A stretch of 43,434 bases of DNA from Komagataeibacter xylinus. Its GTDB lineage: Bacteria > Pseudomonadota > Alphaproteobacteria > Acetobacterales > Acetobacteraceae. Shown here one piece after another: positions 17,297 to 35,240 of this stretch. How positions within the stretch are numbered: position 1 is the first letter of the stretch; each line of letters starts with the position of its first letter. The stretch lies in assembly GCF_004302915.1 (NCBI RefSeq), contig NZ_QQBI01000027.1, positions 1 to 43,434 on the forward strand, read 5' to 3'. The position numbers were made by a program, and so were the translations under genes. Below the pieces are notes generated by a model, which was not told the DNA's origin, did not search any database, and was given only the letters and a program-made list of their open reading frames with translations.

Positions 17297-18262
17297 TCAG
17301 GTCGGGGATACACGATCGGCCTGCCTGCGGCTGACCACGACAGCACCGCCCCACAACGCCAGGAAAACCAGCACGATGCCCGCACCGAGCGCGGCCAGAT
17401 GGTTGCCAGCCGCCACCAGGCCGCGCATGAGCAGGCTGCCGCCCATGGCCCCCATCTGCGGCCCCATTTCAATCATGCCGATGCCCACTGCCGCCACAAG
17501 GGAGACAAGGCTGATGCCCAGATCATAGGCCACGCGCCTGCGGCCCGAGCGCATGCCCCAGCCATAGGCACGGCACATCAGCAGGGTGTCGAGCGTATCA
17601 ACCAGCGCCATGCCCGCCGTAAAAAGCAGCGGGAACGCCATGACCCCCACGAGACCCAGCCCATGATGGGCCTGAACCGCCGCCATGCCCAGCAGGCCGA
17701 TTTCACTTGCGGTGTCAAACCCCAGCCCGAACAGGAAACCGAGCGGGTACATCTGCCAGCTCCGGCCAATCCACCGCCCTGCCTGCCCGGACAGAAAGCC
17801 TGCGGGGCACGCGGGCAACGGGGCGGGCTGGCGCAGGGCCCGCCACTGGCGCACGGCCATGCGGGCATTGGTCAGGACCGCCACAAGCATGAAACCTGCC
17901 GAGACCAGCGTGCCGAAGCCGCCGCCCACCGGATGCCACCGCTCCAGCCAGCCCAGGGCGGGCAGTTCCACCAGCGCAAGGGTGGCGAGAACGACCACGG
18001 TGGAATGACCAAGCGAGAAGAACAGCCCCACCAGCAAAGGCGCGCCTCCCGCCTGCATGAGCCTGCGCGTCACCACGTCGATCGCCACGATATGATCGGC
18101 ATCAAGCCCGTGCCGCAGGCCAAATGCCCATGCCAGCCCGGCTGCGCCCAGCAGGACGGGCGCGCCCCCCAGCGCGGCGACCGCCCACGCCCATGCCACC
18201 ACGTTGGCCAGCAGCAGGGCGCATATGATGGCGCACGTTCCATGCCGGGCATGCGTGAACAT
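17297..18262 (-). CDS. NiCoT-family nickel/cobalt permease
   Basis: A 321-residue inner-membrane protein of the HoxN/NixA/NicT family. The signature helix RHGLDADHIVAID gives His51, Asp56 and His57 (HX4DH). Further family motifs are FFSLGHSTVVV, LGFLFGLGFDTASEI and GMALVDTLDTLLM. About eight membrane segments are seen. It imports Ni(II), possibly also Co(II). It starts 23 nt after urtE on the same strand, so it is the last gene of the urea-importer operon, and the urease operon is close by. The sensible role is to supply nickel for urease. Confidence 0.93.
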   Translation of the reverse strand: MFTHARHGTCAIICALLLANVVAWAWAVAALGGAPVLLGAAGLAWAFGLRHGLDADHIVAIDVVTRRLMQAGGAPLLVGLFFSLGHSTVVVLATLALVELPALGWLERWHPVGGGFGTLVSAGFMLVAVLTNARMAVRQWRALRQPAPLPACPAGFLSGQAGRWIGRSWQMYPLGFLFGLGFDTASEIGLLGMAAVQAHHGLGLVGVMAFPLLFTAGMALVDTLDTLLMCRAYGWGMRSGRRRVAYDLGISLVSLVAAVGIGMIEMGPQMGAMGGSLLMRGLVAAGNHLAALGAGIVLVFLALWGGAVVVSRRQADRVSPT

Positions 18263-18285: not shown

Positions 18286-18981
18286 TCAGATGGTGATGTA
18301 GGCGCGCACATCCTCCGCCACGAGGTCGCGGGCCTGGCCTGCCAGCACCACCTTGCCCCGGTCGAGCACGGCAATCGTGTCGGCCAGTTCGTAGGCAAAA
18401 TCGAAATACTGCTCCACGAGCACGATGGCCATGTCGCCCCGGTCGCGCAGCATGCCGATGATGGTGCCGATATCCTTGATGATGCTGGGCTGGATACCCT
18501 CGGTCGGTTCATCAAGCACCAGCAGGCGCGGACGGATGACGAGCGCGCGCGCAATGGCAAGCTGCTGCTGCTGCCCGCCCGACAGGTCGCCGCCGCGCCG
18601 GTCGAGCATTTTTGCCAGCACGGGGAACAGGTCGAATATCTCATCAGGCACCCGGCGCTGGCCGCGTGGCAGCAGGCCGAAGCCGGTTTCAAGGTTTTCG
18701 CGCACGCTGAGCAGCGGAAAGATGTCGCGCCCCTGCGGCACGGTGGCGATGCCGCGGCGGGCGCGGTCATAGGCGGCGAGCCTGGTAATGTCCTCGCCTT
18801 CCCACGTGATCGTGCCGGCACTTGTGGCATGCATGCCGGTTATGGCGCGGATCAGGCTGGTCTTGCCCACGCCATTGCGCCCGAGCACGCAGGTTACCGC
18901 CCCTGCCCTTGCTGCGAGCGAAACGCCACGCAGGGCAATCGCCGCGCCATAATGCAGGTGCACGTCGTTAACCTCGAGCAT
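18286..18981 (-). CDS. urtE: urea ABC transporter ATPase UrtE
   Basis: A 231-residue LivF-type ATPase. It has Walker A GRNGVGKTS, signature LSGGQQQQLAIARAL and Walker B LLVLDEPTEGIQPSI, the last being characteristic of UrtE. It works with UrtD to power the UrtBC channel. It follows urtD after 35 nt and precedes the nickel permease by 23 nt. Confidence 0.95.
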   Translation of the reverse strand: MLEVNDVHLHYGAAIALRGVSLAARAGAVTCVLGRNGVGKTSLIRAITGMHATSAGTITWEGEDITRLAAYDRARRGIATVPQGRDIFPLLSVRENLETGFGLLPRGQRRVPDEIFDLFPVLAKMLDRRGGDLSGGQQQQLAIARALVIRPRLLVLDEPTEGIQPSIIKDIGTIIGMLRDRGDMAIVLVEQYFDFAYELADTIAVLDRGKVVLAGQARDLVAEDVRAYITI

Positions 18982-19016: not shown

Positions 19017-19757
19017 TCAGCGCCCAAGATAGACCTCGATCACGCGCGGGTCGGCGCTGACCGCGTCCAGCGTGCCTTCGGCCAGCACGCTGCCTTCATG
19101 CAGCACCGTCACATCCACGCCCAGAGCGCGCACGAAATCCATGTCATGCTCCACCACCACCACGCTGCGGGTGCGGTTGATCTCGCGCAGCAGGTCGGCG
19201 GTGGCCATGGTCTCGGCATCGGTCATGCCCGCCACGGGCTCATCCACCAGCAGCAGGTCAGGCTCCTGGCCCATGAGCATGCCGATCTCGAGCCACTGTT
19301 TCTGCCCATGGCTCATGCCGCCAGCAGGCTGGTCGGCCATGGCCTCGAGCCGGGTCAGGTGCAGGAGGCGGTCGATCCGTTCGCGCTCGCCCGCGCTGCG
19401 GCGCGCCATGAGCACGGCAAAGGGCGCGCGCACGCCCTTGAGCGACAGCAGCAGGTTCTCGGTTACGCTCAGCGCCTCGAACACGGTGGGCTTCTGGAAC
19501 TTCCGGCCAATGCCCAGCCGGGCGATGGCGGGTTCATCAAGCCGGGTCAGGTCGCGGCCCTGAAAGCGCACGGTGCCGGTATCGGGGCGGGTCTTGCCGG
19601 TGATGATGTCCATCATCGTCGTCTTGCCCGCGCCATTGGGGCCGACGATGGCGCGCATCTCGCCCGGGCGCAGCGCAAGGCTGAGATTGTTGATGGCGCG
19701 AAAACCGTCAAACGTCACGCTCACATCGCGCATGTCGAGCAGCAGGTCATCGGTCAT
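19017..19757 (-). CDS. urtD: urea ABC transporter ATPase UrtD
   Basis: A 246-residue LivG-type ATPase: Walker A GPNGAGKTT, the unusual signature region PAGGMSHGQKQWLEIGM typical of UrtD, and Walker B LLLVDEPVAGMTDAE. Its ATG overlaps the urtC stop (ATGA). Confidence 0.95.
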   Translation of the reverse strand: MTDDLLLDMRDVSVTFDGFRAINNLSLALRPGEMRAIVGPNGAGKTTMMDIITGKTRPDTGTVRFQGRDLTRLDEPAIARLGIGRKFQKPTVFEALSVTENLLLSLKGVRAPFAVLMARRSAGERERIDRLLHLTRLEAMADQPAGGMSHGQKQWLEIGMLMGQEPDLLLVDEPVAGMTDAETMATADLLREINRTRSVVVVEHDMDFVRALGVDVTVLHEGSVLAEGTLDAVSADPRVIEVYLGR

Positions 19758-20893
19758 GCCTCGTCTCCCTGCGTGTCCGCCACTTCCGGGGTCACTTCCT
19801 CAGGTGGCGGTTTACGGACATGCCGCCACAGCCCCATGAGCCCGTTGGGCAGGAACAAAGTGGTGCAGATGAACAGCAGGCCCAGCCCATACAGCCAGAA
19901 CTCCGGCAGCCACGCGGTGAACAGCGTCTTGCCCAGATTGACCAGTATGGCCCCCAGCACTGCCCCGCACAGCGTGCCACGACCGCCCACCGCCACCCAG
20001 ATCACGGATTCAATCGAATTGGCGGGCGCGAACTCACCGGGGTTGATGATGCCAACCTGCGTGACATAAAGCGCGCCACCCAGGCCTGCGATCATGGCCG
20101 AGAATACCCACACCAGCAGCTTGGCCTGCTCGGGGCGGTAACCCAGGAAACGGGTGCGGCTTTCGGCATCGCGCACGGCCACCAGCAGGTTGCCAAAACG
20201 GCTGCCCACCACAAAACGTGCGGCGAGCAGGCTTGCGGCCAGCAGCACGCCGGTCACCACCAGCAGCACCGCGCGGGTCAGCGGCGCATGCAGGTCGGCG
20301 CCAAGGATGTCCTTGAAGTCGGTCAGGCCGTTATTGCCGCCAAAGCCCAGCCCATTCTGGAAAAACGCCAGCATGAGCGCATAGGTCAGCGCCTGCGTGA
20401 TGATGGACAGATACACCCCGGATACGCGCGAGCGGAAGGCAAGCCAGCCAAACACCCCGGCCAGCAGCCCCGGCACCGCCACCACCAGCACGGCGGCCCA
20501 CGCAAAATGCTCCGAGCCCCACCAGTACCACGGCAGGCTTTTCCATGAGAGGAAGATCATGAAATCCGGCAGTTCGGCATTGCCATAAACGCCGCGCGCC
20601 CCGATCTCGCGCATGAGGTACATGCCCATGGCATACCCCCCCAACGCGAAGAACGCGGCATGACCCAGCGTAAGAATGCCCGCAAAGCCCCATACCAGAT
20701 CCACCGCCAGTGCCAGCATGGCATAGGACAGGTATTTACCCGCAAGCGACACCACGAAGGCGGAGGCATGCAGCGGATTGCCCTCGGGCAGCAGGCTGGC
20801 TGCGGCAAGGCCGCCTGCCGCCACCATAACGGCCACCGCCATCCAGATCACGCCACGCAGGGAGCGCTGGGCATGGGTTGAGAACGGGTTCAT
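19754..20893 (-). CDS. urtC: urea ABC transporter permease UrtC
   Basis: A 379-residue LivM-type permease with about 9-10 membrane helices. The conserved LVWGFAGILTLGHAAFFALGGYAMGMYLM and GRGTLCGAVLGAILVNLGKT are visible. The C-terminus is hydrophilic (KPPPEEVTPEVADTQGDEA). Its start overlaps the urtB stop and its stop overlaps the urtD start, so the subunits are coupled. Confidence 0.95.
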   Translation of the reverse strand: MNPFSTHAQRSLRGVIWMAVAVMVAAGGLAAASLLPEGNPLHASAFVVSLAGKYLSYAMLALAVDLVWGFAGILTLGHAAFFALGGYAMGMYLMREIGARGVYGNAELPDFMIFLSWKSLPWYWWGSEHFAWAAVLVVAVPGLLAGVFGWLAFRSRVSGVYLSIITQALTYALMLAFFQNGLGFGGNNGLTDFKDILGADLHAPLTRAVLLVVTGVLLAASLLAARFVVGSRFGNLLVAVRDAESRTRFLGYRPEQAKLLVWVFSAMIAGLGGALYVTQVGIINPGEFAPANSIESVIWVAVGGRGTLCGAVLGAILVNLGKTLFTAWLPEFWLYGLGLLFICTTLFLPNGLMGLWRHVRKPPPEEVTPEVADTQGDEA

Positions 20894-22494
20894 GATTCAA
20901 CTCCCCGCCCGCGTACGGGAAACATGCCGCGCGGATGGCGCTGGATATAGAGAATGACCAGCACGAGAATGGCGATCTTGGCCGAGACCGCGCCAATGGT
21001 CGGCTCCAGCACCTTGCCGCCCATGCCCAGCGCCAGGGCCGCCGCCAGCGTACCCCACAGGTTGCCGACCCCGCCAAACACCACCACCATGAAGCTGTCG
21101 ATGATGTAGGACTGCCCGAGGTTGGGGCTGACATTATCAATCTGGCTGACCGCAACGCCCGCAAGCCCCGCAAGCCCTGCCCCCAGCCCGAAGGCCAGCG
21201 CATCGACCCGTGGGGTGCGGATGCCCATCAGCGCCGCCATGCGGCGGTTCTGGGTGACCGCGCGCATCTGCAACCCAAGCGGCGTGCGCCGCAGCACCAG
21301 CATCAGCCCGCCCAGCACCAGGCCAGCAAAGACAAGGATGGCCAGCCGGTTGAGCGTGATGTCCATGCCGCCCACCGCAACCGAGCCGGAAAGCCAGCCC
21401 GGCGTCTGCACCGCGATGTTGGTCGGCCCGAAAATAGAACGCACCGCCTGCTGCAAGATGAGCGAAAGCCCCCATGTGGCCAGAAGCGTTTCAAGCGGGC
21501 GGCCATACAGGAAGCGGATCAGCCCGCGCTCGATCAAGATGCCAAGCGCCCCGCACACCACGAACGCCACCGGAATGGCCACGAGAATGGCCACCGGCTC
21601 CAGCGCGGGCACACTCGCGCGGATGGCCTGCTGCACCATCCACGTCACATAGGCGCCAATCATCATCATCTCGCCATGGGCCATGTTGATCACGCCCATC
21701 ACGCCAAAGGTAATGGCGAGCCCCGTGGCCGCAAGCAGCAGCACCGAGCCGTAGCTCAGGCCATAAAAGGCATTCTGCGCAACGCCCCAGGCACGCAGGT
21801 GCCAGTCGATGCGGGATACGGCGGCCTGTGCCTCACGGCGCACTGCTGGCGCTTCCGCATCCGACCCGGCAACACCGGCGAGGATGCCACGCGCCTGGGC
21901 GCCACCAACCGCGCCGAGCGCGCGCACCGCCTCAAGCCGGGAGGCAAGCGCATCGGGGGCGGGAGGCTGGCCAAGAATGGTCGCGGCCCGCACCTCGGCC
22001 AGCCGGGTGCGCACGGCGGCATCCTTTTCCACCGCAAGGGCATGCTCCACAACCGGCAGCATGGCCGGGTCGTGGCGGGCGTAAAGCGCGTCGGCGGCCC
22101 TGAGCCGCGTTGCGGGCTGGGGCGCGAGCAGGTCCCTGCCGGCCTGCACGCCCGCGAGTGCCGTGCGGATGCGGTTGTTCAGGCGGATCGGCTTCAGCCC
22201 CTCCGGCACGGACACCTGGGGCTGGCCCGTGCGGGCCTCCACGTAGTTTTCGCCGTGGCGGATATACACGCTGCCATCAGGAGCTGCGAACAGGCTCCGC
22301 TCGCCCAGCGCCTGCAACGCAGCCCCGGCCTGCGGGTCATCTGACGTGGCAAGGGTGGAAATGGCCGCCGTGACCACCCCGAATTGCGGGCTGGCCAGGT
22401 CGGCAAAGGCGTCTGCCCGCGCACTGTGGCCCGGCAGCAGCATTGCCCCGAGCCACAGCGCCGCCAGCAGGCAGGTCGTGCGCGCCTTACGCAT
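20890..22494 (-). CDS. urtB: urea ABC transporter permease UrtB
   Basis: A 534-residue LivH-type permease. A signal-like segment (MRKARTTCLLAALWLGAMLLPGHSARA) and a roughly 200-residue extracytoplasmic region of HEAT-like helices precede the membrane domain, as usual in UrtB. The permease core includes SYGSVLLLAATGLAITFGVMGVINMAHGEMMMIGAYVTW and FVVCGALGILIERGLIRFLYGRPLETLLATWGLSL-type segments. The ATG at 22494 is chosen over 22545: it gives the signal peptide and overlaps the urtA stop by only 8 nt. Confidence 0.94.
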   Translation of the reverse strand: MRKARTTCLLAALWLGAMLLPGHSARADAFADLASPQFGVVTAAISTLATSDDPQAGAALQALGERSLFAAPDGSVYIRHGENYVEARTGQPQVSVPEGLKPIRLNNRIRTALAGVQAGRDLLAPQPATRLRAADALYARHDPAMLPVVEHALAVEKDAAVRTRLAEVRAATILGQPPAPDALASRLEAVRALGAVGGAQARGILAGVAGSDAEAPAVRREAQAAVSRIDWHLRAWGVAQNAFYGLSYGSVLLLAATGLAITFGVMGVINMAHGEMMMIGAYVTWMVQQAIRASVPALEPVAILVAIPVAFVVCGALGILIERGLIRFLYGRPLETLLATWGLSLILQQAVRSIFGPTNIAVQTPGWLSGSVAVGGMDITLNRLAILVFAGLVLGGLMLVLRRTPLGLQMRAVTQNRRMAALMGIRTPRVDALAFGLGAGLAGLAGVAVSQIDNVSPNLGQSYIIDSFMVVVFGGVGNLWGTLAAALALGMGGKVLEPTIGAVSAKIAILVLVILYIQRHPRGMFPVRGRGVES

Positions 22495-23827
22495 GCCTGT
22501 GCCCGAGGCACGCCTTGGTAACGGTGTTGTAGTTGCCGCAGGCAATGGGCTTGCGCCAGTCGCCGATCAGGTCTTTCGTTTCCGGCACCCACGGCGACCA
22601 GGCCTGCCCGGGCACGAGTGCCGGGGTCTTCCACACCACCGAGAACTGCCCGTCATCCTGTATCTCGCCAATATAGACCGGCTTGGTCAGGTGGTGGTCG
22701 GGCAGCATCTCGGCCACGCCGCCGGTCAGGTTGGGCTGGCGGATGCCGATCATGGCGTCAATCACCTTGTCATGATCGGTGGTACCCGCTTTGGTCACCG
22801 CCTGCACCCACATGTTGAAGCCGATGTAATGCGCCTCCATCGGGTCGTTGGTGGTGCGCTTGGGGTTTTTGGTGAATTCGTGCCACTGCTTGATGAAGGC
22901 GGTATTGGCCGGGGTGTCGATGCTCTCGAAGTAGTTCCACGCGGCAAGCTGGCCCACCAGCGGGGCGGTGTCCATGCCGGCCAGTTCCTCTTCGCCCACG
23001 CTGAAGGCCATGACCGGGATGTCGGTGGCTGAAATGCCCTGATTGCCCAGCTCCTTGTAGAACGGCACGTTGGCATCGCCATTGATGGTCGAGACTACCG
23101 CAGTCTTCTTGCCCGCCGAGCCGAAAGCCTTGATCTGCGAGACGATGGTCTGCCAGTCCGACTGCCCGAACGGCGTGTAGTTGACCATGATGTCGGCTTC
23201 CGCGATGCCCTTGGCCTTGAGGTAATTGGCCAGGATCTGGTTGGTCGTGCGCGGATAGACGTAATCCGTGCCCACCAGCGCGAAACGCTTCGCCCCGCCG
23301 CCATCCTCGCTCAGCAGGTAGTCCACCGCCGGTATGGCCTGCTGGTTGGGGGCCGCACCCGTATAGAAGATGTTGCGGCTGCACTCCTGGCCTTCGTACT
23401 GCACGGGATAGAACAGGATGCCGTTGAGTTCCTCGAACACCGGCAGCACCGATTTGCGTGAAACGCTGGTCCAGCAGCCAAATACGGCCGATGCCTTGTC
23501 CACCGACAGGAGCTGGCGCGCCTTCTCGGCAAAGAGCGGCCAGTTCGAGGCGGGATCCACCACCACCGCTTCAAGCGGGCGGCCAAGCAGGCCGCCCTTG
23601 CGGTTCTGCTCGGCAATGAGCATCAGCATGACATCCTTGAGCGTGGTCTCGCTGATCGCCATCGTGCCGGACAGCGAATGCAGGATGCCAACCTTGATCG
23701 GTTCGCCCGTGGGCGCTGCCGCCCGCGCCGGCGCCGTGCGCCACATGCCCCCCACAGCAGCCGCCGAGGAGGCAAGGGCAAGACGTCCGAACGCGCGACG
23801 GGAAAGGTGAGGCAGTGTGACAGGCAT
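22487..23827 (-). CDS. urtA: urea ABC transporter substrate-binding protein UrtA
   Basis: A 446-residue periplasmic binding protein. The N-terminus MPVTLPHLSRRAFGRLALASS is a twin-arginine (Tat) signal, cleaved probably near ARAAAPTG. The mature domain IKVGILHSLSGTMAISETTLKDVMLMLI and SVFGCWTSVSRKSVLPVFEELNGILFYPVQYEGQE-type segments identify UrtA. The start at 23827 is chosen because it places the Tat motif directly at the N-terminus and has AAAGGA upstream. It is the first gene of urtABCDE plus the nickel permease. A palindrome lies 56 nt upstream in the gap shared with the divergent kinase gene. Confidence 0.95.
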   Translation of the reverse strand: MPVTLPHLSRRAFGRLALASSAAAVGGMWRTAPARAAAPTGEPIKVGILHSLSGTMAISETTLKDVMLMLIAEQNRKGGLLGRPLEAVVVDPASNWPLFAEKARQLLSVDKASAVFGCWTSVSRKSVLPVFEELNGILFYPVQYEGQECSRNIFYTGAAPNQQAIPAVDYLLSEDGGGAKRFALVGTDYVYPRTTNQILANYLKAKGIAEADIMVNYTPFGQSDWQTIVSQIKAFGSAGKKTAVVSTINGDANVPFYKELGNQGISATDIPVMAFSVGEEELAGMDTAPLVGQLAAWNYFESIDTPANTAFIKQWHEFTKNPKRTTNDPMEAHYIGFNMWVQAVTKAGTTDHDKVIDAMIGIRQPNLTGGVAEMLPDHHLTKPVYIGEIQDDGQFSVVWKTPALVPGQAWSPWVPETKDLIGDWRKPIACGNYNTVTKACLGHRHA

Positions 23828-23882
23828 GATGAATGGTCCTTTTGCTGCTGCCTGCATTGTCGGCGTACACAAAAGCGCTTCC

Positions 23883-23902
23883 CATACGCATTCCTGCGTA
23901 TG
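23883..23902. promoter_or_regulatory. perfect 8-4-8 palindrome between urtA and the sensor kinase
   Basis: CATACGCA-TTCC-TGCGTATG is a perfect inverted repeat in the 133-bp gap between the divergent urtA and kinase genes. Its size and spacing fit a dimeric response regulator of the NarL/LuxR class, the type encoded at 27275-28168. TACGCA-like half-sites recur upstream of the porin and of ureD. Confidence 0.6.
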
Positions 23903-23960: not shown

Positions 23961-26900
23961 GTGATCTTGCCGCACCCGACCAGCCGCCTGCGCATCGTGC
24001 GTCCCCGCCGGGCCTACAGCCGCTGGGCCGCCGACCAGACATTCGAGGACTACGCCCTGCGCTTTACCGCGCGCAGCGCGCGCATGGCCACGCCCATGCG
24101 GGCGGCGCGCACGGCACTGGGCTCCATCTCGTTCCTCGCCCTCGAGGCCATGGGCGGCACGCTCACGCTGGCCTTCGGCTTTGCCAACACGGCCGCGGCC
24201 ATAGCCCTTGTCACGGTGGTCATCTTCACCCTTACCCTGCCGCTATGCGCAACGGCGGCGCGCGCGGGGCTGGATATCGACCTGCTCACGCGCGGCACCG
24301 GCTTTGGCTATATCGGCTCGACCATCACCTCGCTGCTCTATGCCATTTTCACCTTCATCTTCTTCGGGCTCGAGGCGGCGATCCTGGCGGGCACGCTGCA
24401 CGGGCTGCTGGGCATGGAGCTGTGGCTGGCGTACCTGCTGTGCGCGGCCATCATCATCCCGCTGGTGACGTGGGGCATCACGTTCATCGCCCGTTTCCAG
24501 ATCGCGACACAGCCGGTCTGGCTGGCCCTCAATCTCATCCCCCTCGTGGTGCTGGCGGGCCTGCACCCCGAACTGCTGGGGCAATGGACCCATTTCAGCG
24601 CGCCCTACGGGCCGCCCGGGCGCATCGACCCCCTTGCCGTGGGCACCGGCGCCTCGCTCATGATCGTGCTGGTGTGCCAGAGTGCGGAACAGATCGATTT
24701 CCTGCGCTTCCTGCCCGAACCCACGCGTTGCAACCGGCGGCAATGGTGGGTGGCGCTGGTGCTGGGGGGGCCGGGATGGGTGGTGCTTGATGCCTTCAAG
24801 CTGCTGGCGGGGTCGTTTCTGGCATGGGTGGCGCTGCAGGCAGGCTTTTCACCGCTGCAGGCGGTCCAGCCCGGGGTGATGTACCGTTTTGCCTGGGGCA
24901 GTTTCACCCCCGCCCCGGTCGCGACCGTGCTGACGGTGGCGCTGGTGGCGCTGGCGCAGGTCAAGGTCAACATCACCAATGCCTATGCCGGGTCGCTGGC
25001 ATGGTCGAACTTCTTCTCGCGCCTGACCCACACCCATCCGGGGCGGGTGTTCTATGTCATCTTCAATGTCATGATCGCCCTGCTGCTGATGGAAGCCGGG
25101 CTGGTCAGCACCATCCAGACCGGCATCACGCTGTATGGCGTTCTGGCCTGTGCATGGATTGGCGCGATACTGGGGGATGTGACGCTGTGCAAGCCGCTTG
25201 GCCTCAGCCCGCCCTTTGTCGAGTTCAAGCGCGCGCTGCTGCCGGACTTCAACATCGTGGGGCTGGGGGCATGGGGTATCGCCGCAGCCACGGGCGTTGG
25301 GGCCTTTGCAGGCTATCTGGGCCCGATGGCCGCGGCCTATGCGCCTTTCCTCACGCTGGGGGTAGCCTTTGCCGCGGCACCGGCGCTGGCGTGGCTGACC
25401 GGGGGGCGCACCTATCTGGCCCGCCCCCAGCCAGCGGGCTGGAACGACCGGCCCGCCATGACCTGCGTCATCTGTGAGCATACCTTCGAGGCACGGGATA
25501 TGGCGCCCTGCCCGGCCTATGGCGGCACGATCTGCTCACTGTGCTGCTCGCTGGACGGGCGCTGCCGCGACCGCTGCAAGCCGGTCTCGACCCGCATGGG
25601 CAGCCAGCTTGCCGCCCCGCTCCGCACCCTGCCACCCCGCCTGCGCCGGTGGCTCGTGGCGCCTGCGGGGCGCTTTACGCTCATGCTGGCGGGCATGACG
25701 CTGGGCATGGGGCTGCTGGCATGGGCAACGGGCCATGCGTGGAGTGGCATCATGGTGCCGGTCTTCCTGGCGGGCACGGTGGGCGCGTGGCTGCTGGTCA
25801 TGGCGCAGGAGGGACGGCGCACCGCCACGCGCGAGACCCTGCACCAGACCCGCCAGCTCATGAACGAGATCCGCGCCCGCCGCCGCACCGACCATGCGCT
25901 GAAGCTGGCCCGCGAAAAGGCCGAGGCCGCAAGCCTGGCCAAGACCCGCTACATCAGCGGCATCAGCCACGAGATCCGCTCGCCGCTCAACGCCATCATG
26001 GGCTATATCCAGCTGCTGCAACACGATACGCGCCTGCCGCCCGAGCGCCACCAGGCGCTGGGCATCATGCGCGAAAGTGGCGAGCACATCACCAGCATCC
26101 TCTCCGGCCTGCTTGACATCTCGCGCATCGAGGCCGGGCGGATCGAACTGCATGCCGATACCATCGCCCTGCCCGCCTTTCTGGAATCCGTGGCCCAGAT
26201 GATCCGCCCGCAGGCGCAGGCGCGCGGGCTGGAGCTGGTATGGCGGCCCGGCTACCTGCCCGCCGTCGTCACGTGCGATGAGCACCGCCTGCGCCAGATC
26301 CTGCTCAACCTGCTGTCAAACGCGGTCAAGTTCACCCGGCAGGGCACGGTCACATTCGGGGCGAGGTGGCAGGGGCAGATTGCGGAATTCATCATAGAAG
26401 ACACCGGCCCCGGCATTGCTGCGGAAGATCATGCCCGCATTTTCGAGCCCTTTGAACGCGGCGGCGCCAGCGCGGGCGTGCCGGGCACCGGGCTGGGGCT
26501 GACCATCACCCGGCTGCTGACCGAAGTCCTGGGCGGCGAACTGACCTTTACCAGCACGCCGGGCAAGGGATCGCGCTTCAGGGTGCGGCTCATGCTGTCT
26601 GACCGGCAGGTGGAGCTACCGCCCCGCCTGCCCGCCTTCCCCACCGGCTATGAAGGGCCACGCCGTACGGTGCTGGTGGTGGATGACAATGCCGAGCACC
26701 GCCTGATCATGCGCGAAATCCTTGAACGCTGCGGCTTTGCCTTTGAAGGGGCGGAAAGCGGGGCGGAATGCCTCGACCGCCTGCCGCTGGTGCAGCCCGA
26801 CCTGCTGCTGCTCGACCTGTCCATGCCGGGCATGGACGGGCGCGACCTTGCCCTGCGCATCCGCAACTCCCCCCATGCCCGCGTGCCGATCATGTTCCTG

Positions 26901-27278
26901 ACCGGCAACCTGGTGGAAAGTGCCAACCGCCATGTCCCCTCGCTTGAGGACTGCCCCGTGCTGGGCAAGCCGGTGAACCTGTCGGTTCTGGTCACCAAAA
27001 TGGGCCAGATGCTCGGCCTTGAATGGATCTTTCCCGCCACCGGGGCTGACAGTGCGCCACTTCTCCCGCCCGACACACCCGCCACCCTGCCCGAGGCGGA
27101 GCGCGTGGCCCTGCTTGCCCTGCTTGATGGCGGTAACCTGCGCCACCTGCGCACCCACCTGGCCACCCTGCGCGCGCAGCACCCGGCCCTGGGCGGCGCG
27201 ATCGAACCGCTGCTGGCCCTTGCCGCGTCCTACCAGCTTGAAGCCCTGCGCCACCACCTGGAGCGACCCACGCCATGA
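23961..27278 (+). CDS. hybrid sensor histidine kinase with permease-like sensor domain
   Basis: An 1105-residue inner-membrane protein. Residues about 1-490 form a 12-helix NCS1-like (purine/cytosine permease-type) transporter domain, including ARAGLDIDLLTRGTGFGYIGST and FLRFLPEPTRC. Residues 502-539 are a compact Cys-rich segment (CVIC ... CPAY ... ICSLCCSLDGRCRDRC), probably zinc-binding. Two more helices (about 570-620) and a coiled coil precede the HisKA box (His670 in GISHEIRSPLN). The ATPase domain has the N box LLNLLSNAVKF and G boxes DTGPGIA and GTGLGL. A receiver follows with phospho-Asp952 (LLLLDLSMPGMDG), then an Hpt-free tail. The start is GTG at 23961 with a weak ribosome site. 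CbrA-like kinases share the transporter-as-sensor plan. Divergence from urtA suggests sensing of urea or its transport; this is inference. Confidence 0.88.
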   Translation: MILPHPTSRLRIVRPRRAYSRWAADQTFEDYALRFTARSARMATPMRAARTALGSISFLALEAMGGTLTLAFGFANTAAAIALVTVVIFTLTLPLCATAARAGLDIDLLTRGTGFGYIGSTITSLLYAIFTFIFFGLEAAILAGTLHGLLGMELWLAYLLCAAIIIPLVTWGITFIARFQIATQPVWLALNLIPLVVLAGLHPELLGQWTHFSAPYGPPGRIDPLAVGTGASLMIVLVCQSAEQIDFLRFLPEPTRCNRRQWWVALVLGGPGWVVLDAFKLLAGSFLAWVALQAGFSPLQAVQPGVMYRFAWGSFTPAPVATVLTVALVALAQVKVNITNAYAGSLAWSNFFSRLTHTHPGRVFYVIFNVMIALLLMEAGLVSTIQTGITLYGVLACAWIGAILGDVTLCKPLGLSPPFVEFKRALLPDFNIVGLGAWGIAAATGVGAFAGYLGPMAAAYAPFLTLGVAFAAAPALAWLTGGRTYLARPQPAGWNDRPAMTCVICEHTFEARDMAPCPAYGGTICSLCCSLDGRCRDRCKPVSTRMGSQLAAPLRTLPPRLRRWLVAPAGRFTLMLAGMTLGMGLLAWATGHAWSGIMVPVFLAGTVGAWLLVMAQEGRRTATRETLHQTRQLMNEIRARRRTDHALKLAREKAEAASLAKTRYISGISHEIRSPLNAIMGYIQLLQHDTRLPPERHQALGIMRESGEHITSILSGLLDISRIEAGRIELHADTIALPAFLESVAQMIRPQAQARGLELVWRPGYLPAVVTCDEHRLRQILLNLLSNAVKFTRQGTVTFGARWQGQIAEFIIEDTGPGIAAEDHARIFEPFERGGASAGVPGTGLGLTITRLLTEVLGGELTFTSTPGKGSRFRVRLMLSDRQVELPPRLPAFPTGYEGPRRTVLVVDDNAEHRLIMREILERCGFAFEGAESGAECLDRLPLVQPDLLLLDLSMPGMDGRDLALRIRNSPHARVPIMFLTGNLVESANRHVPSLEDCPVLGKPVNLSVLVTKMGQMLGLEWIFPATGADSAPLLPPDTPATLPEAERVALLALLDGGNLRHLRTHLATLRAQHPALGGAIEPLLALAASYQLEALRHHLERPTP

Positions 27279-28168
27279 CCGTGCCCGATCCATCCCGCAA
27301 ATCCGTTCTTGTCATTGATGATGACCCGGCCGTTCTGGGCCTGATGGACGAAAAACTGACCGATGGCGGCTATACGGTGCTGCTGGCGCAGTCCGGCATG
27401 GCAGCGCTTGCCGTCGTGGCGCGCACCGTGCCGGACCTGATCATGGTCGATGCCCTCATGCCCGGCATGAACGGGTGGGACGTGTGCGCGGCCCTGCATG
27501 ACGACCCGCGCCTGAGCCTCGTGCCCATTATCTTCATGACCGGCCTGACCGAGACCGAGCACGTGATCCGCGCGTTTGAGGCCGGTGCCGCCGATTACGT
27601 GACCAAGCCCCTGCGGCTGGAGGAAGTCATGGCCCGCATTGGCGTGCGCATGGAATCCGCCGCACGCATCCGCGCGGCCCATGGGGCGCTTGACCATGCG
27701 GGCCGCTTCCTGCTGGCCACCAGCCAGGCGGGCGATGTGCTGTGGGCCACGCCACAGGCGGGGCTTGTGCTGCGCGAGCTTTCAGGCCCCGGTGATGCGG
27801 GCGCGGCCCTGTCCCTGCCCACGCCCCTGCCCGCGCCCGGCAGCGTGCTCATGCGCCATAATGTGGGTGAAAACGAGCTTGTGCTGACCCTTGTGGGCAT
27901 GAGCGGACCCGATGAACTGCTGCTGCGCATCAGCCGGCAGCCACTTTTCCCCCAGCGCATATTGCAAGACAGGCTGGGCCTGAGCGCGCGCGAGGCGGAA
28001 GTGCTGCTGTGGATCTCGCGTGGGAAGACCAGCCGCGACATTGCCGATATCCTGAAGGTCAGCCCGCGCACGATCGACAAGCATATCGAACAGATCTACA
28101 ATAAGACCGGACTGAGCACGCGGGCGGCTGCGGCGGCTACCGCATCGCGCCTGCTGCAGGAGCGCTAG
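27275..28168 (+). CDS. LuxR/NarL-type response regulator
   Basis: A 297-residue regulator: an N-terminal receiver (VLVIDDDPAVLGLMDE, phospho-Asp59 in LIMVDALMPGMNGWD, Thr and Lys switch residues in FMTGLTE and VTKPL), a roughly 90-residue linker, and a C-terminal LuxR helix-turn-helix (LSAREAEVLLWISRGKTSRDIADILKVSPRTIDKHIEQIYNKTGLSTRAAA). Its ATG overlaps the kinase TGA, so the pair is co-translated and almost certainly cognate. Likely targets are urtA, the porin and ureD, which share half-sites upstream; this is inference. Confidence 0.92.
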   Translation: MTVPDPSRKSVLVIDDDPAVLGLMDEKLTDGGYTVLLAQSGMAALAVVARTVPDLIMVDALMPGMNGWDVCAALHDDPRLSLVPIIFMTGLTETEHVIRAFEAGAADYVTKPLRLEEVMARIGVRMESAARIRAAHGALDHAGRFLLATSQAGDVLWATPQAGLVLRELSGPGDAGAALSLPTPLPAPGSVLMRHNVGENELVLTLVGMSGPDELLLRISRQPLFPQRILQDRLGLSAREAEVLLWISRGKTSRDIADILKVSPRTIDKHIEQIYNKTGLSTRAAAAATASRLLQER

Positions 28169-28732: not shown

Positions 28733-29929
28733 TCAGTACTGGAACTGCATGCCCAGCAAAAAAGCCCCCACCGCGCGCGTGCCCATGGCCTTGTAGCGCA
28801 CGTAATCGAACGTAAAGCGCAGGTTGTGGCCATCCATGACATAATTGCCGCCCACATCGAACTGGGTGGTCTTTGGGTGGCCGGGACCGTACATGTCCTT
28901 CTTGAAGCGGAACTGCTGGTAACGCACCAGCGGCTGGATGCGCCCCCAGCCCAGCCGGTAGGGAATGAGATACGCCGTGCTGGCCAGGAAGGCCGTGCCA
29001 TCGTTCACGCCACCCACATTGCCATAATCGGCCGAGCGCTGCCCGTAGCCTGCCGCGATGTCCTTCACGCCGCCGGTATAATACTGGTAATACGCGCCCT
29101 CGAGTGTATAGACGCCGTATTTCGCGCCCTCGCCAATGCGTTTTTCAAACAGGCCATCAACATTCCACGCCTTGTAGTCGCCCTTGTCCTGCGCGGTGCC
29201 CACGCCATCGGTTTCGTACTGGCCTGCAAGGCCAATGGCCAGGATGTCGGCCTTGCCGTAATAGGTACTGGCCGTATAGTAGGCAGGCGACGGCTCGGGA
29301 TCGAGGAAGTTGTATTCCATGCGCGCGGCAAAGAGCGGGTGCTCGCCATAATTGGAGCCGCCGCGCACCCAGTTATGCCCGCGATAGACACCCGCCACGT
29401 AGCGGAAGCGATCCTTGAGCAGCCTGCCCCACACCGAGATGCCATCATCACGGCCCGACCACGCACCCGGATACTGCGATACTATTGGAAAGGCATAGGT
29501 GCTGAGGAAGTATGGCCCGTCAAGGTTCGAGCGGTCACTTGGCGTGAGCATGCGCCCGCCCCAGACATTGAACGCCTTCCACCGCTCGACCTGCAGGACA
29601 CCGTCAAGCACGTTCCAGTTGCCATCACGCAGGCGCTCGAGGTTGAGCGTTGACTTGACGTATTTGTGGAACTGCGCGCCCATGTAGATACGCAGGTCAC
29701 TGGCACTTGCCGCATCCTTGTTGCCGGGCATGGTGGTGTCGTGGCTCAGATACTGCGCCCGCACGCCCAGGCCCAGCGTAAAGAACTGGTCCTTGCCAAA
29801 ATTAACCGTGGTGGCCGCGCGGGCATGGGGCATGCTGGCACCAAGCGCCACGCAGGCCGACAGGATACTGCCGCAACGCAGCAGCTTCTTCTTCCGGCTC
29901 ATCCTGAACCGGGACACAAGCGCAATCAT
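28733..29929 (-). CDS. outer-membrane porin, possibly FmdC-like (urea/short-chain amide)
   Basis: A 398-residue protein. A signal peptide (KKKLLRCGSILSACVALGASMPHARA) precedes a beta-barrel rich in Gly, Tyr and Trp that ends in an aromatic residue (LLGMQFQY). The start NFGKDQFFTLGLGVRAQYLS and DLRIYMGAQFHKYVKSTLNLERLRD resembles porins related to FmdC of methylotrophs, which is linked to uptake of short-chain amides and urea. That likeness is by eye. AAGGGG at 29936-29941 with a 6-nt spacer supports the ATG at 29929; ATG 29935 is alternative. Position between the kinase/regulator pair and the urease operon fits a role in letting urea through the outer membrane. Confidence 0.78.
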   Translation of the reverse strand: MIALVSRFRMSRKKKLLRCGSILSACVALGASMPHARAATTVNFGKDQFFTLGLGVRAQYLSHDTTMPGNKDAASASDLRIYMGAQFHKYVKSTLNLERLRDGNWNVLDGVLQVERWKAFNVWGGRMLTPSDRSNLDGPYFLSTYAFPIVSQYPGAWSGRDDGISVWGRLLKDRFRYVAGVYRGHNWVRGGSNYGEHPLFAARMEYNFLDPEPSPAYYTASTYYGKADILAIGLAGQYETDGVGTAQDKGDYKAWNVDGLFEKRIGEGAKYGVYTLEGAYYQYYTGGVKDIAAGYGQRSADYGNVGGVNDGTAFLASTAYLIPYRLGWGRIQPLVRYQQFRFKKDMYGPGHPKTTQFDVGGNYVMDGHNLRFTFDYVRYKAMGTRAVGAFLLGMQFQY

Positions 29930-29974
29930 GAACATCCCCTTGTGGCTGCGGTCACCGACCGGCGACAGGGAAAC

Positions 29975-29984
29975 ATTACGCAAT
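29975..29984. promoter_or_regulatory. TACGCAAT half-site upstream of the porin
   Basis: ATTACGCAAT, 45 bp before the porin start, contains TACGCAAT, identical (inverted) to ATTGCGTA at 35221-35228 upstream of ureD. A possible second, imperfect site ATGCGTGA lies nearby at about 30002-30009. Candidate site for the response regulator. Confidence 0.3.
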
Positions 29985-30101
29985 TGCACCATCAGGACGG
30001 GATGCGTGAAATTACTTATAATGGCCGTTTATGAGCTTATTCATGCCACCAACGCGGGGCAGCGCATGCCATCGTGCAATGATCGCTGGCACGCAGATAC
30101 C

Positions 30102-30165: not shown

Positions 30166-30780
30166 TTACAGGCCGCCCTGTTCAATGATGAAACGGGCAA
30201 TATCCTCCACCCCCTCGCCTGCACGGACATTGGCAAACACAAAGGGCCGCTGCCCGCGCATGCGCCTGCTGTCGCGGTCCATCACCCCAAGGTCAGCGCC
30301 GACATGGGGGGCGAGGTCGATCTTGTTGATGACCAGCAGGTCGCTGCGCGTAATGCCGGGGCCGCCCTTGCGGGGGATCTTGTCCCCTGCCGAGACATCA
30401 ATGACATAGATGGTCAGGTCAGCCAGTTCGGGGCTGAACGTGGCGGCAAGGTTGTCACCGCCACTTTCCACCAGCACGAGGTCCAGCCCGGCAAAGCGCT
30501 CCGTCAGTTCCGCAATGCCTGCCAGGTTGATGCTGGCATCCTCGCGTATGGCCGTGTGCGGGCAGCCACCGGTCTCGATGCCCATGATGCGCTCGGGCGG
30601 GAGCGAGCCCGCGCGGGTCAGGAACTCCGCATCCTCGCGCGTGTAGATATCGTTGGTGATGGCGGCAATATTGTAATCATTGCGAAAGCGGCGGCACAGC
30701 GCATCCATCAATGCTGTCTTGCCCGTGCCCACCGGGCCGCCAATGCCCACACGCAGCGGGCCGTGCTTTGCCTTTGTCAT
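30166..30780 (-). CDS. ureG: urease accessory GTPase UreG
   Basis: A 204-residue SIMIBI-class GTPase that drives nickel insertion into urease. The P-loop [10 protein letters not shown] has Lys21; the nickel-binding GGCPHTAIR is near 72-79; [21 protein letters not shown] and the NKIDLAP base-recognition motif are present. It is the last gene of ureDABCEFG. Its ATG overlaps the ureF stop, and a strong terminator follows. Confidence 0.96.
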
Positions 30781-31460
30781 GTTCTGAACAACCTCGTTTC
30801 CTGGGTTTCGTGATGCATGGCGGCGAGGTCGGCGGCAAAACAGGCCCCGCCCACATCGTCCAGCGTCTGGTGCCTGGCCTGCGCTGCGGCCTGCGCCAGT
30901 ATGGTTTCAAGCCGGGCCAGCGCGTGCAGCCCGTCCGTCTGGCCCAGCGGCACCAGCCGCACGGCAGCCGACACCAGGGCCGCCACCGCCGCATACCCGC
31001 CCGAAAGCACGGCCTGCCCCACGGCCACGCCGCCACGGCGAAACACCAGCCCCTGCACCACCGGCAGCGGCCAGCGCGTGCCTGCCAGCATGGCCTTGGG
31101 CGGCACGACATGCCACACCGCCGCCGCCCGCAAAAAGGCCTCGCCCTGATATACCGTCTCCTCATACCGCTCGCGCGAGGCGGCGGAGGCGCAGGCAAAA
31201 CGGGCAATCTCGCGCAGGCGGGCATCATCCTCACCCGCCTGCCATGCCGCATGCACAATGATCAGGTCATTGCCAAGACTGCCATGGCGCAGCAACGCGC
31301 CAACCCACGCGCACAGGGTTTCCACATCACGCACGTCACCGCGCTCGACCGCCCATTCCAGCCCGTGGCTGTAGGCATACCCCCCCGTGGGGAAAGCGGG
31401 CGACACCCATGAGAGCAGCCGCAGGAAATCCTGCCCGGCCAGGCCAGCGGGTTCAGTCAT
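30777..31460 (-). CDS. ureF: urease accessory protein UreF
   Basis: A 227-residue all-helical accessory protein. It has the conserved start [29 protein letters not shown] and the [10 protein letters not shown] segment. It forms the UreDFG activation complex. The ATG at 31460 is chosen; it gives the usual UreF N-terminus and overlaps the ureE stop by 8 nt. A longer frame upstream only runs antiphase through the His-rich end of ureE. Confidence 0.94.
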
Positions 31461-31967
31461 GCGCGTGGTGGTGGCCGCCATGCTCATGCGTGTGGGCATG
31501 GTCGTGATGGTGGTCATGGCCGTGTGCTGTGCTGCGCCCTGCATAGGCCCCGCTTTCGGGGTCAAAGGCTGCCCTGACGTGGCGCACATGCCCGCCAAGG
31601 CCTGCAATCATGTCGGCAATCACATGGTCATGCCGCACGAGGATGCGCTCGGCCCCAATAGCGGCGGGCAGGTGCCGGTTGCCCAGGTGCCAAGCCAGCC
31701 GCAGCAGGTGCAGCGGGTCATGGGCGGTGACCTCCATCAGGTCTTCCGGCAGGGCTTCGACGCGAACGACGCGGCCATCATCAAGCACCAGCCCATCGCC
31801 ATCGGCCAGCAGGCGGGCATGCTCAAGTTCAAGCAGCACGCGCGCACCCGAGCGCAGGGTGAGCATCATGCGTCTGCGGTGGCGGCCTTCATAATCGGCG
31901 GCGAACACATCCGCGGCCTCGGCCACGGGCCAGCTTCCCGCTGGCAGGATTTTGGTGACACGGGTCA

Positions 31968-31968
<1 letters not shown>
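31453..31968 (-). CDS. ureE: urease nickel metallochaperone UreE with His-rich tail
   Basis: A 171-residue nickel-binding chaperone. The peptide-binding domain (MTRVTKILPAGSW ... ARVLLELEHARLLADGDGLVLDDGRVVRV) is followed by the metal-binding domain with LLRLAWHLGNRHLP and ILVRHDHVIADMI. The C-terminus ends in a His/Asp-rich tail with more than ten His in about 23 residues, as in Klebsiella-type UreE, suited to nickel storage. The ATG at 31968 overlaps the ureC TGA; an upstream frame is rejected. Confidence 0.94.
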
Positions 31969-33670
<1,702 letters not shown>

Positions 33671-33674
<4 letters not shown>

Positions 33675-34015
33675 TGGTCCACACTCCCCATCACATCACC
33701 CCTGAAGCCGATCACGCGGCGCAGGCCCCGCAGCGGCACCAGTGTGACGTCACGCTCCTGCCCCGGCTCGAAGCGCACCGCCCCGCCCGATGGCACGTCA
33801 AGCCGCCAGCCCAGCGCCTGCGCGCGCTCAAAGCACAGGGCCGGATTGACCTCGGCAAAATGATAATGGCTGCCGACCTGCACGGGGCGGTCGCCGGTAT
33901 TGGTCACGCGCAGGGTGCGCCGGGGCTGGCCTTCATTGAGGGTAATCTCGCCCCCATCGGTCAGGATCTCGCCGGGTATGGCGCCTTCGGGCAGGGGGTC
34001 AGCGTATCGGGTCAT
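33671..34015 (-). CDS. ureB: urease beta subunit UreB
   Basis: A 114-residue structural subunit: [73 protein letters not shown]-type sequence throughout. Its ATG (34015) lies inside the 3' end of ureA (17-nt overlap), and its stop overlaps the ureC start. Confidence 0.97.
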
Positions 34016-34301
34016 GGACTGTCACCAGTTTCGTGCCATCGGGGAAGGTCGCCTCGACCTGAACATCATGGATCATCTCGGCCACGCCGGGCATGACCTG
34101 CGCGCGGGTCAGCACATGGCCGCCACTGGCCATGAGCTCGGCAACACTCAGCCCGTCGCGCGCGCCTTCGACCACATGGTCGGTAATCAGGGCCACGGCC
34201 TCGGGGTAGTTCAGCCGCACGCCACGTTCCAGCCTGCGGCGGGCCACGATGGCCGCCATGGCGATGAGCAGCTTGTCCTTTTCCCTTGGTGTCAGCTTCA
34301 T
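33999..34301 (-). CDS. ureA: urease gamma subunit UreA
   Basis: A 100-residue subunit starting [20 protein letters not shown], with [21 protein letters not shown] and [17 protein letters not shown]. The ATG at 34301 matches the universal UreA start and has GGAG upstream. The three separate subunits ABC are the usual bacterial form, unlike the fused Helicobacter type. Confidence 0.97.
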
Positions 34302-34335
34302 GTCGTGCTCCGCCTCCTTGCCTGCCTGTGCTGTA

Positions 34336-35169
34336 TCATGACCGCCATGTGGAGGGCATGGGTCGCCCCGCCCGCAATGCAGGCAGGATATGACGCAGCG
34401 CCCCCTCAAGCGCCCAGCCCCCCTTGCCCACGCCACGCACCACCAGCATGCCGTTCCACGCGGATGCGGCAAAGCCCGCGCATTGGGGCGCTGCCAGCCG
34501 TTCGCGCACCGGGGCCAGCAGGTCCATCGCCTGCGGGCTGGCCAGCACCAGTGTGGCCACCGCGCCCTGCCCCGCAGCCACGGCGGGCTGGGCCAGCAGG
34601 GCCGTGACAGTGGTGCTTTCCAGCCGCAGCATGTCTTCGAGCAGCAGTTCGCCCGCGCGCCTTATGGTCAGCCGGTCGCGCACGTGCAGGCTGGCAAGCT
34701 GCTCGCCCGCGCCAAGGCGGCCGAATATCCGGCTCTCGAGAAAGAGGAAGGTGGCGGATTGCGCCATATCCACCACCATGTGGCGGCGCAGGCGGCTGCC
34801 ATCAAAAAAGATCGTGCCATGCGGCAGCCATTCCAGCCGCGCCCCGGCATCGATATGGCAGGAAACCGCCATGTCCGCCGGGCTGTCTTCGGGGCGGGCG
34901 CGGTAGATCCGCTCGGCCGCCTGCGATGTGACCAGTAGCTCCGTGCCGGGACCACAGGACAGCCGCCCGTTGATGCGGTCACCCGCCGCGATGCCGCCCG
35001 ATATATTGACCGTGGCGGCTTCCAGCCCGTTGCCCTGCACGCGCGGAAACAGCAGGCGGCAGCAGCCTGCCTGCACCAGATCGGCCATGCGGGTGCGGGC
35101 GCCATCAGCCCTGACCTCCAGCCCGAACTGCCCCCTTGCGCGCTGGAGTGGGATTATGCCCGCGTTCAT
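34336..35169 (-). CDS. ureD: urease accessory protein UreD
   Basis: A 277-residue scaffold protein that binds apo-urease and recruits UreF and UreG. Conserved are [26 protein letters not shown] and [18 protein letters not shown]. It is the first gene of ureDABCEFG; 34 nt separate it from ureA. The putative promoter and regulator half-sites lie at 35194-35240. Confidence 0.95.
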
Positions 35170-35193: not shown

Positions 35194-35240
35194 ATCGTAG
35201 CAGCCGGGTGCGATACGTCCATTGCGTAGAATTACGTAAT
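35194..35240 (-). promoter_or_regulatory. candidate urease promoter with tandem TACG(T/C)AAT sites
   Basis: On the minus strand TACGTAAT (35238-35231) and TACGCAAT (35228-35221) are direct repeats spaced 10 bp apart, one helical turn, with a further ACGTATC just downstream. They abut a weak promoter, TGGACG (35221-35216), 16-bp spacer, TACGAT (35199-35194) with TG in front. The ureD start is 25 nt further. The layout, weak -35 with phased boxes, fits activation by a bound regulator. Confidence 0.4.

Follow-up and report, generated by a model that had tools for sequence, protein, structure and literature searches.

Studies have shown that sensor kinases may carry a transporter domain at their N-terminus and control the uptake and catabolism of nutrients. 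For example, CbrA, CrbS and RpuS, of the pairs CbrA/B, CrbS/R and RpuS/R, are fusions of an SLC5-type transporter and a STAC domain to a kinase, according to the available parts of PMC9100948 and PMC13022988. In the anammox bacterium Kuenenia, an ammonium transporter is fused to a histidine kinase (PMC5764959, available part). In this study, we describe a permease-fused hybrid sensor kinase of Komagataeibacter xylinus, encoded with a LuxR-type response regulator in a 43,434-nucleotide stretch (contig NZ_QQBI01000027.1, positions 1 to 43,434), which is called the window below. We consider it likely that the two proteins form a urea-responsive transceptor two-component system whose regulator acts at palindromes as one urea regulon, with an amide counterpart in relatives. 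With less confidence, yet still on balance, we believe that the sensor domain comes from an unrecognised NCS1-type urea/short-chain-amide permease family, which has been recruited as the sensor of two-component, receiver-less-kinase and GGDEF-EAL proteins in a module that switches between urea and amides and spreads on plasmids. Such permeases are annotated as 'cytosine permease', 'allantoin permease' or 'hypothetical'.

The K. xylinus kinase resembles the SLC5/STAC kinases in having an N-terminal transporter domain on a sensor kinase, whereas its fold is of the NCS1 and not the SLC5 type, its context is that of urea and short-chain amides, and an eight-Cys segment with further helices stands where CbrA has STAC and PAS. 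Neither 'NCS1' nor 'urea' occurs in the main text of PMC9100948 or PMC13022988, as far as these texts are available. The Kuenenia protein likewise joins a nitrogen-compound transporter domain to a histidine kinase, and differs in its Amt/Rh fold and in ammonium. Its name is presumably Ks-Amt5, and to our knowledge the Amt/Rh fold is not homologous to NCS1. Few fusions of a transporter to a kinase have been studied in bacteria, and those in the literature consulted are of the SLC5 and Amt types. The idea of such a fusion is already established, as the first-pass annotation of this DNA had noted for CbrA and its other transporter family; the NCS1-type urea/amide version would be the new part. 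No NCS1-fused kinase or urea transceptor was found among the literature matches listed, in a search that covers subscription journals thinly, and an earlier description is possible.

Gene clusters similar to those around the amide-type relatives have also been described. A urt-like cluster of Bradyrhizobium japonicum has been argued to move acetamide, formamide or similar compounds (PMC3098086), and its urt-like ATP-binding cassette (ABC) genes beside formamidase/amidase are of the same types as those that adjoin the amide-type kinases. A urt-like ABC beside formamidase is also reported in PMC13209695, and the UTS of Klebsiella pneumoniae CG307 is composed of UrtABC/AmiF (PMC13060141), the same urt-like ABC and formamidase make-up as in the Klebsiella loci L152 and L160, a resemblance by gene content alone. 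In the available main texts, 'histidine kinase' and 'sensor' do not occur in PMC3098086, nor 'histidine kinase' in PMC13209695 and PMC13060141.

Fold and parts of the sensor kinase

The kinase is read from a GTG start as an open reading frame (ORF) of 1,105 amino acids at 23961..27278 on the + strand, as are all its parts. The NCS1-like (LeuT-fold) transporter domain, with 12-13 helices, spans about residues 26-480 (24036..25400, from hhalign and Foldseek). The eight-Cys segment, a CxxC...CxxC core with four more Cys recognised by conservation, follows at residues 502-539 (25464..25577), and further hydrophobic helices at about residues 565-615 (25653..25805, from hydropathy and AlphaFold2, AF2) lie N-terminal of a coiled coil and the HisKA domain. 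Pfam places HisKA (PF00512) at residues 660-726 (25938..26138), with the phospho-acceptor His670 at 25968-25970, HATPase_c (PF02518) at residues 773-879 (26277..26597), and a receiver (PF00072, Response_reg) at residues 904-1012 (26670..26996), with Asp952 at 26814-26816. His670 and Asp952 are conserved in 118 and 116 of 120 aligned fused proteins, respectively. By Pfam and conservation the protein is a hybrid HisKA kinase, with HisKA and its H, HATPase_c, and a receiver with its D. Seven rows had been excluded from this alignment beforehand, namely the truncated or cut ORFs L048, L120, L212, L241_1 and L242_1, the plain NCS1 permease L213 and the duplicate L046.

For the fold of the sensor domain, a profile of 38 relatives was compared by hhalign with an alignment of six NCS1-type permeases, of which three were found with a query of the kinase family and three are PF02133 matches in the K. 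xylinus genome; the probability was 100 and the E value 1.8e-39. An AF2 model of residues 1-545, built from 15 sequences, had a predicted local distance difference test (pLDDT) of 66.4 and a predicted template modelling score (pTM) of 0.68. With this model, Foldseek returned Mhp1 at ranks 1-3 (best E 1.1e-6) and CodB at ranks 5 and 7 (rank 5, E 7.5e-5), and the template modelling score of CodB by target length, 0.70, was the highest among the matches listed. Taken together, the hhalign and Foldseek results predict that the sensor domain is an NCS1-type LeuT fold by remote homology. NCS1 and SLC5 are related through the LeuT fold, and SLC5 structures were interleaved with CodB in the Foldseek search, as expected, because the two share one fold superfamily. 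The fused domain fails the SLC5 sequence test and fits NCS1, by remote homology and a 12-helix LeuT-type fold; no SSF (SLC5) Pfam match was found in it at E<=10. No Pfam domain was found between the transmembrane part and HisKA, in a library that may lack a STAC model. Solved structures gave 0 matches to the family profile at E<=1 by sequence search, and in the whole-protein search the best 60 of 309 matches all start at residue 619 or later.

Compared with the NCS1 permeases Mhp1 and CodB, the domain agrees in fold and remote sequence homology, and two of eight scanned kinase-free twins pass the PF02133 cut-off of 23.5 (L235 with 31.8 bits and L279 with 37.7 bits); L153, L155, L236, L281, L285 and L286 gave no PF02133 match. 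It is unlike these permeases in lacking a Pfam match, in its C-terminal Cys tail, and in a genomic link to urea and amides instead of nucleobases and hydantoins. The label of a 12-helix NCS1-like domain in the first-pass annotation thus stands by profile-profile comparison and fold search, although Pfam is blind to the domain. The HisKA, ATPase and receiver that it named are all present in Pfam, with His670 and Asp952 near-invariant, while the helices at about 565-615 between the Cys segment and the kinase were absent from it.

The Cys-rich segment had been called probably zinc-binding. Its eight Cys (502, 505, 517, 525, 528, 529, 535 and 539) are invariant across the aligned fused proteins (120 of 120), and the segment is probably a Zn site, an assignment that goes beyond the conservation itself. 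The CxxC...CxxC core is also present in four of the four stand-alones in that alignment, and was not found in the stretch searched of three Actinobacterial stand-alones. At least two hydrophobic segments lie upstream of the kinase in all 119 proteins with both motifs, by hydropathy, and the helices at about 565-615 also appear in the AF2 secondary structure, at low confidence; the full-length model (pLDDT 53.8, pTM 0.30) was used for helix positions only. A Paracoccus NCS1 'cytosine permease' adjoining hydantoinase genes (L252:5716-7341) has a CxxC...CxxC stretch near its end, which suggests that the Cys tail may predate the joining of the domain to a kinase.

The same NCS1-like domain is joined to other outputs. 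HisKA-HATPase without a receiver follows it in L200, L204 and L237, and a PAS-PAS-kinase-receiver in L239. In L238:7149-10820, the NCS1-Cys domain is fused to PAS-GGDEF-EAL, and no urea/amide genes were found near it; this protein is a possible cyclic di-GMP transceptor, judging from its domains.

Linkage of the family to urea and amide genes

The response regulator (27275..28168, + strand, 297 amino acids) has Response_reg at residues 11-122 and a LuxR/GerE helix-turn-helix (GerE, residues 236-288) in Pfam, and its ORF overlaps that of the kinase by 4 bases. Of 106 non-redundant rows, 94 have a regulator downstream of the fused protein. None was called in the other 12, which are four stand-alones, five proteins with other output architectures (L200, L204, L237, L238 and L239), and L173, L177 and L241; in these last three, the locus map has a regulator match that the filter of this count did not take.

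We mapped 127 loci from named Acetobacteraceae, phylum, class, plasmid and Gammaproteobacteria sets. In the named Acetobacteraceae, urt and/or urease genes adjoin the kinase in 17 of 17 loci (a script gave 16/17; L048 has urtB-E and a broken urtA, and L047 covers the downstream side only). These orthologues keep the kinase, the regulator and the neighbours, and the arrangement is therefore not chance. Urea or short-chain-amide genes are neighbours in 50 of the 52 family loci that were fetched for the phylum sample; the two misses are L165, where the contig ends right before the kinase, and L212, a 4.8-kb contig. The plain NCS1 permease L213 was set apart from these loci, and four matches already in the class set and two places in the K. 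xylinus genome were not refetched. The first-pass annotation had proposed that orthologues consistently located away from urea genes would speak against a urea-related transceptor, and the linkage found in the Acetobacteraceae and phylum loci is the opposite. Its interpretation as a urea-related sensor is supported by this linkage, and is refined by gene context to urea or short-chain amides. Chance clustering of the kinase with such genes was rejected on the locus tallies.

Two types of context occur: true urtABCDE with or without urease, and a urt-like ABC with formamidase FmdA, FmdB, aliphatic amidase or nitrilase. The association is seen in Alpha-, Beta- and Gammaproteobacteria. On the best tree of 106 non-redundant domains, the urea/amide label changes at least seven times, and these natural switches between sensors are a built-in specificity experiment. 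In an even draw of 398 Pseudomonadota genomes (domain threshold E<=1e-15), the domain is found in 52, the K. xylinus genome included. If the transceptor reading is true, this family would bring a third transporter fold to the kinase fusions; it would also provide a candidate dedicated urea/amide sensor with an operator and a regulon, and a predicted new permease family in urease operons. Among 385 Alphaproteobacteria the domain occurs in 26 (E<=1e-20), and four further genomes of that draw, from the same bacterial family as K. xylinus, gave no match.

A paralogue in the K. xylinus genome (L095, contig C64) has a kinase/regulator pair adjoining a nitrilase-type formamidase, with two operators, and its sensor domain shares 46% with that of the window kinase. 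The L095 formamidase is 88% identical to that of a Klebsiella plasmid, and the L095 module was perhaps acquired, to judge from this similarity. The domain has homologues in 342 Klebsiella plasmid records, and in the plasmid loci L152 and L160 the kinase, the urt-like ABC and the formamidase lie near resistance genes.

The domain also exists without a kinase. Sixteen of 20 opened stand-alone loci, hand-picked from larger match lists, adjoin urea or amide genes (urease, formamidase/amidase). Stand-alones in urease clusters were found in Acinetobacter lwoffii, A. ursingii, Klebsiella pneumoniae, G1007 and four kin loci. Those beside amide genes are from Moraxella osloensis (fmdA), Arthrobacter U41 (before an aliphatic amidase) and Methylovirgula, and that of Tsukamurella is near fmdA with two genes between; in G993, G1103, G1106 and G1108 the stand-alone is divergent from a family kinase and beside formamidase and nitrilase genes. 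Since such twins stand by urease and amidase genes, the 'transporter domain as sensor' is more than a resemblance, and their natural occurrence allows one fold to be studied side by side as transporter and as sensor. A UrtABCDE cluster was found in none of the sixteen linked loci (weak UrtA-like matches occur in L155, 30%, and L285, 26%). Most simply, the permease would take the place of the ABC importer there, and the sensor domain would have a urea/amide permease as its ancestor or sister. On the domain tree, the four stand-alones included cluster together (support 95) within the kinase-fused rows; this tree is unrooted, and which form is older is therefore not readable from it.

In K. pneumoniae, the urease cluster ends with the twin at L279:6962-8569, which comes after ureG, bears the annotation 'cytosine permease' and is a candidate urea permease by its position. 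In the same record, an insertion sequence element sits where ureC should continue. In Acinetobacter baumannii (L286), a stand-alone and a kinase point away from each other, and an operator scoring 24.1 lies in the gap.

The predicted operator and the proposed mechanism

The search for an operator covered 68 intergenes that separate the kinase from a divergently oriented UrtA-type gene. By dyad counting, TACGn8CGTA occurs in 53 of the 68, where about one was expected, and the palindrome is ATACGYnnnnnnRCGTAT-like. A symmetric position weight matrix (PWM) scores beyond the 99% null in all 18 urea-type intergenes and in 47 of the 49 amide-type ones (65 of 67 labelled; the L248 intergene bore no urea/amide label, hence 67 of 68). 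This count is not a test, because 66 of the 68 intergenes had served to train the matrix. First-order Markov shuffling served as the null here and in the Acetobacteraceae scans.

In the window, the predicted operator ATACGCATTCCTGCGTAT lies between urtA and the kinase (23884..23901, PWM 19.4) and is the sole match with 0 or 1 mismatches (0.14 expected). Predicted operators also lie upstream of the porin (30002..30019, PWM 12.8) and upstream of ureD (35222..35239, PWM 9.8); these three are the only sites in the window that score at least 9, compared with 0.6 in a shuffled window. The first ATG of the porin ORF comes 9 bases after the porin site. A porin start at the signal-peptide-like Met31 seems more likely and would put the site about 100 bases upstream. 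The porin-upstream site reaches at least 9.5 in 17 of 17 Acetobacteraceae loci (9.5-12.8), and the ureD-upstream site at least 9.8 in 11 of 14, with three at 6.9; these loci are related, hence not independent events. In a scan of 1.86 Mb from 103 loci with the kinase starts masked, 27 sites scored at least 13. For 23 of these, a urea, amide, porin or Ni-permease gene starts no more than 350 bp downstream; such upstream stretches account for 10.6% of the sequence. After dropping L150 and L157, which are truly the kinase/UrtA intergene with an ORF start called too far upstream, the count is 21 of 25; some of these sites come from close relatives (L097/L098, L101/L102), so not all are independent. 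The operator is thus found again before porin, ureD, fmdA and amiE genes that have transcription units of their own. The link of the regulator pair to urtA, the porin and ureD is supported by these predicted sites.

At L109 and L149 (Tistrella pTM1), an operator of 24.1 precedes the kinase pair and no urea/amide genes are nearby, which may reflect a remote regulon or a broken link. The urease stand-alone clusters L279, L284, L288, L293 and L294 have no site of at least 12, and are therefore probably outside the control of this regulator.

We propose the following mechanism. The NCS1-type permease fold of the sensor would have a bacterial urea/short-chain-amide permease as its ancestor or sister. 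When urea binds at the central site of this fold, or is transported there, the conformation of the domain would change, and this change may pass through the cytosolic eight-Cys segment, probably with Zn, and the helices to the coiled coil, which would set autophosphorylation at His670. Asp952 could tune or relay the phosphate, as sink, relay or tuner. The phosphorylated LuxR-type regulator would then bind the palindromes at urtA/kinase, porin and ureD, and an outer-membrane route, the ABC importer, the Ni permease and urease would be switched on together. In relatives, the same sensor-operator module would govern the uptake and hydrolysis of formamide and acetamide.

This proposal has competitors. 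A possible, though not a probable, explanation, which overlaps the proposed one, is that the domain is first of all an active urea importer and that the kinase reads the transport flux. The fused domain keeps the motifs QxKxNxTNAY, EQxDxLRF and RGxGFGYxGS of the stand-alones, which favours this, as does the precedent of CbrA with its reported transport and kinase activities (PMC7096432, available part); however, 92 of the 127 mapped loci contain a UrtA-type gene, and a second importer would therefore often be redundant. We think it unlikely that the NCS1-like fold is a scaffold with which the pair senses ammonium, pH, nickel or proton motive force and so controls the urea/amide genes. The conserved motifs shared by the urea and amide types would suit such a cue, while the twins beside genes hydrolysing urea and amides point to an amide substrate and not to a general cue. 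Formamidase and amidase enzymes are not known to need nickel, the many loci of this kind do not fit that metal, and nickel-only sensing was rejected on the amide loci.

The palindrome might be bound by another regulator, for example a global nitrogen regulator, which appears quite improbable to us. The three best by PWM of 15 pattern matches in the K. xylinus genome are the window site and two at the paralogue, a ranking of these 15 matches and not a genome-wide matrix scan, and the helix-turn-helix of the LuxR-type regulator is conserved across the same span of loci. A global nitrogen operator was rejected on the position of these best-scoring matches, all at the two kinase loci. Strongly disfavoured, and by far the least probable, is an ordinary hybrid kinase that lies near urea genes by operon hitch-hiking without regulating them. 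A few loci without urea/amide genes and without a strong operator (L104, L158) would agree with it, but the association across three classes of Proteobacteria and the operator recurring at porin, ureD, fmdA and amiE do not.

Several results weigh against the urea/amide transceptor itself. On the structural side, the AF2 model of residues 1-545 is moderate and the other four models had pLDDT of only 45-51; an engineered iodide symporter of the SLC5 kind ranked 4 in Foldseek (E 2.8e-5), ahead of CodB; residues 1-537 match no Pfam family at E<=10, in a search where the HMMER filters drop most matches above 0.1; and the PF02133 search of the K. xylinus genome does not return the kinase. On the side of context, 21 of 26 class-set loci are linked, while L104, L109, L111 and L113 (about 20 kb each) and L120 (truncated kinase) have no urea/amide genes. 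The same is true of 2 of 14 annotated plasmid loci (12 linked), hand-picked from 531 plasmid records, and of 8 of 17 Gammaproteobacterial loci, where eight others are linked and L248 has a more distant UrtA. Three of the eight unlinked Gammaproteobacterial loci carry other output domains and some sit on short contigs. An NCBIfam scan of 10 neighbour proteins, nine from unlinked loci and one from L245, gave no common theme; they included an RND pump, NupC, MCP, PntA and D-Ala ligase. Four of the 20 stand-alones (L280, L282, L286 and L292) have no urea/amide neighbour, and the unlinked ones include Streptomyces angustmyceticus and Arthrobacter NicSoilB11. No alignment column separates urea- from amide-linked sensors once relatedness is controlled, in an underpowered test (3 independent pairs on starred branches, 6 on all branches), a result that also suits the sensing of another cue. 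The loose operator pattern (at most one mismatch) is not enriched in the K. xylinus genome, with 15 places against 17 for the reversed control, and no site reaches 13 in 17 of the 42 additional loci scanned, including L104, L158, L193, L201, L208, L211, L240, L247 and L250. Finally, the cell could sense urea in its interior, or by way of UrtA, and not with this domain.

Neighbouring genes in the window

The urt cluster lies on the - strand, divergent from the kinase: urtA (22487..23872, TIGR03407), urtB (20890..22545, TIGR03409), urtC (19754..20893, TIGR03408), urtD (19017..19757, TIGR03411) and urtE (18286..18981, TIGR03410). Five of the five subunits exceed the curated NCBIfam cut-offs. This and the 4-base overlap agree with the head-to-head arrangement of the kinase and its adjoining regulator with urtABCDE described in the first-pass annotation. 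Its further neighbours, a nickel permease, a porin and urease, hold in part. The alpha subunit of urease, UreC, is above the NCBIfam cut-off, whereas the Ni/Co transporter of HoxN/NixA type (17297..18262, - strand, TIGR00802) and the porin (28733..29992, - strand, NF040900, ExtI-like) match their families below the cut-off. The urease operon, ureD ... ureC E F G, occupies 30166..35169 on the - strand, and no ureB was assigned; ureG, ureF, ureE, ureA and ureD are presumed from position, family knowledge and tblastn between loci.

On the + strand, 33236-33525 matches Rfam RF02514 (5' ureB small RNA) with 115.5 bits, antisense to ureC, and this match may merely mirror the conserved ureC coding sequence. 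A small protein at 28225-28665 on the - strand has no Pfam or NCBIfam match, and is retained between the regulator and the porin in 17 of 17 named Acetobacteraceae loci.

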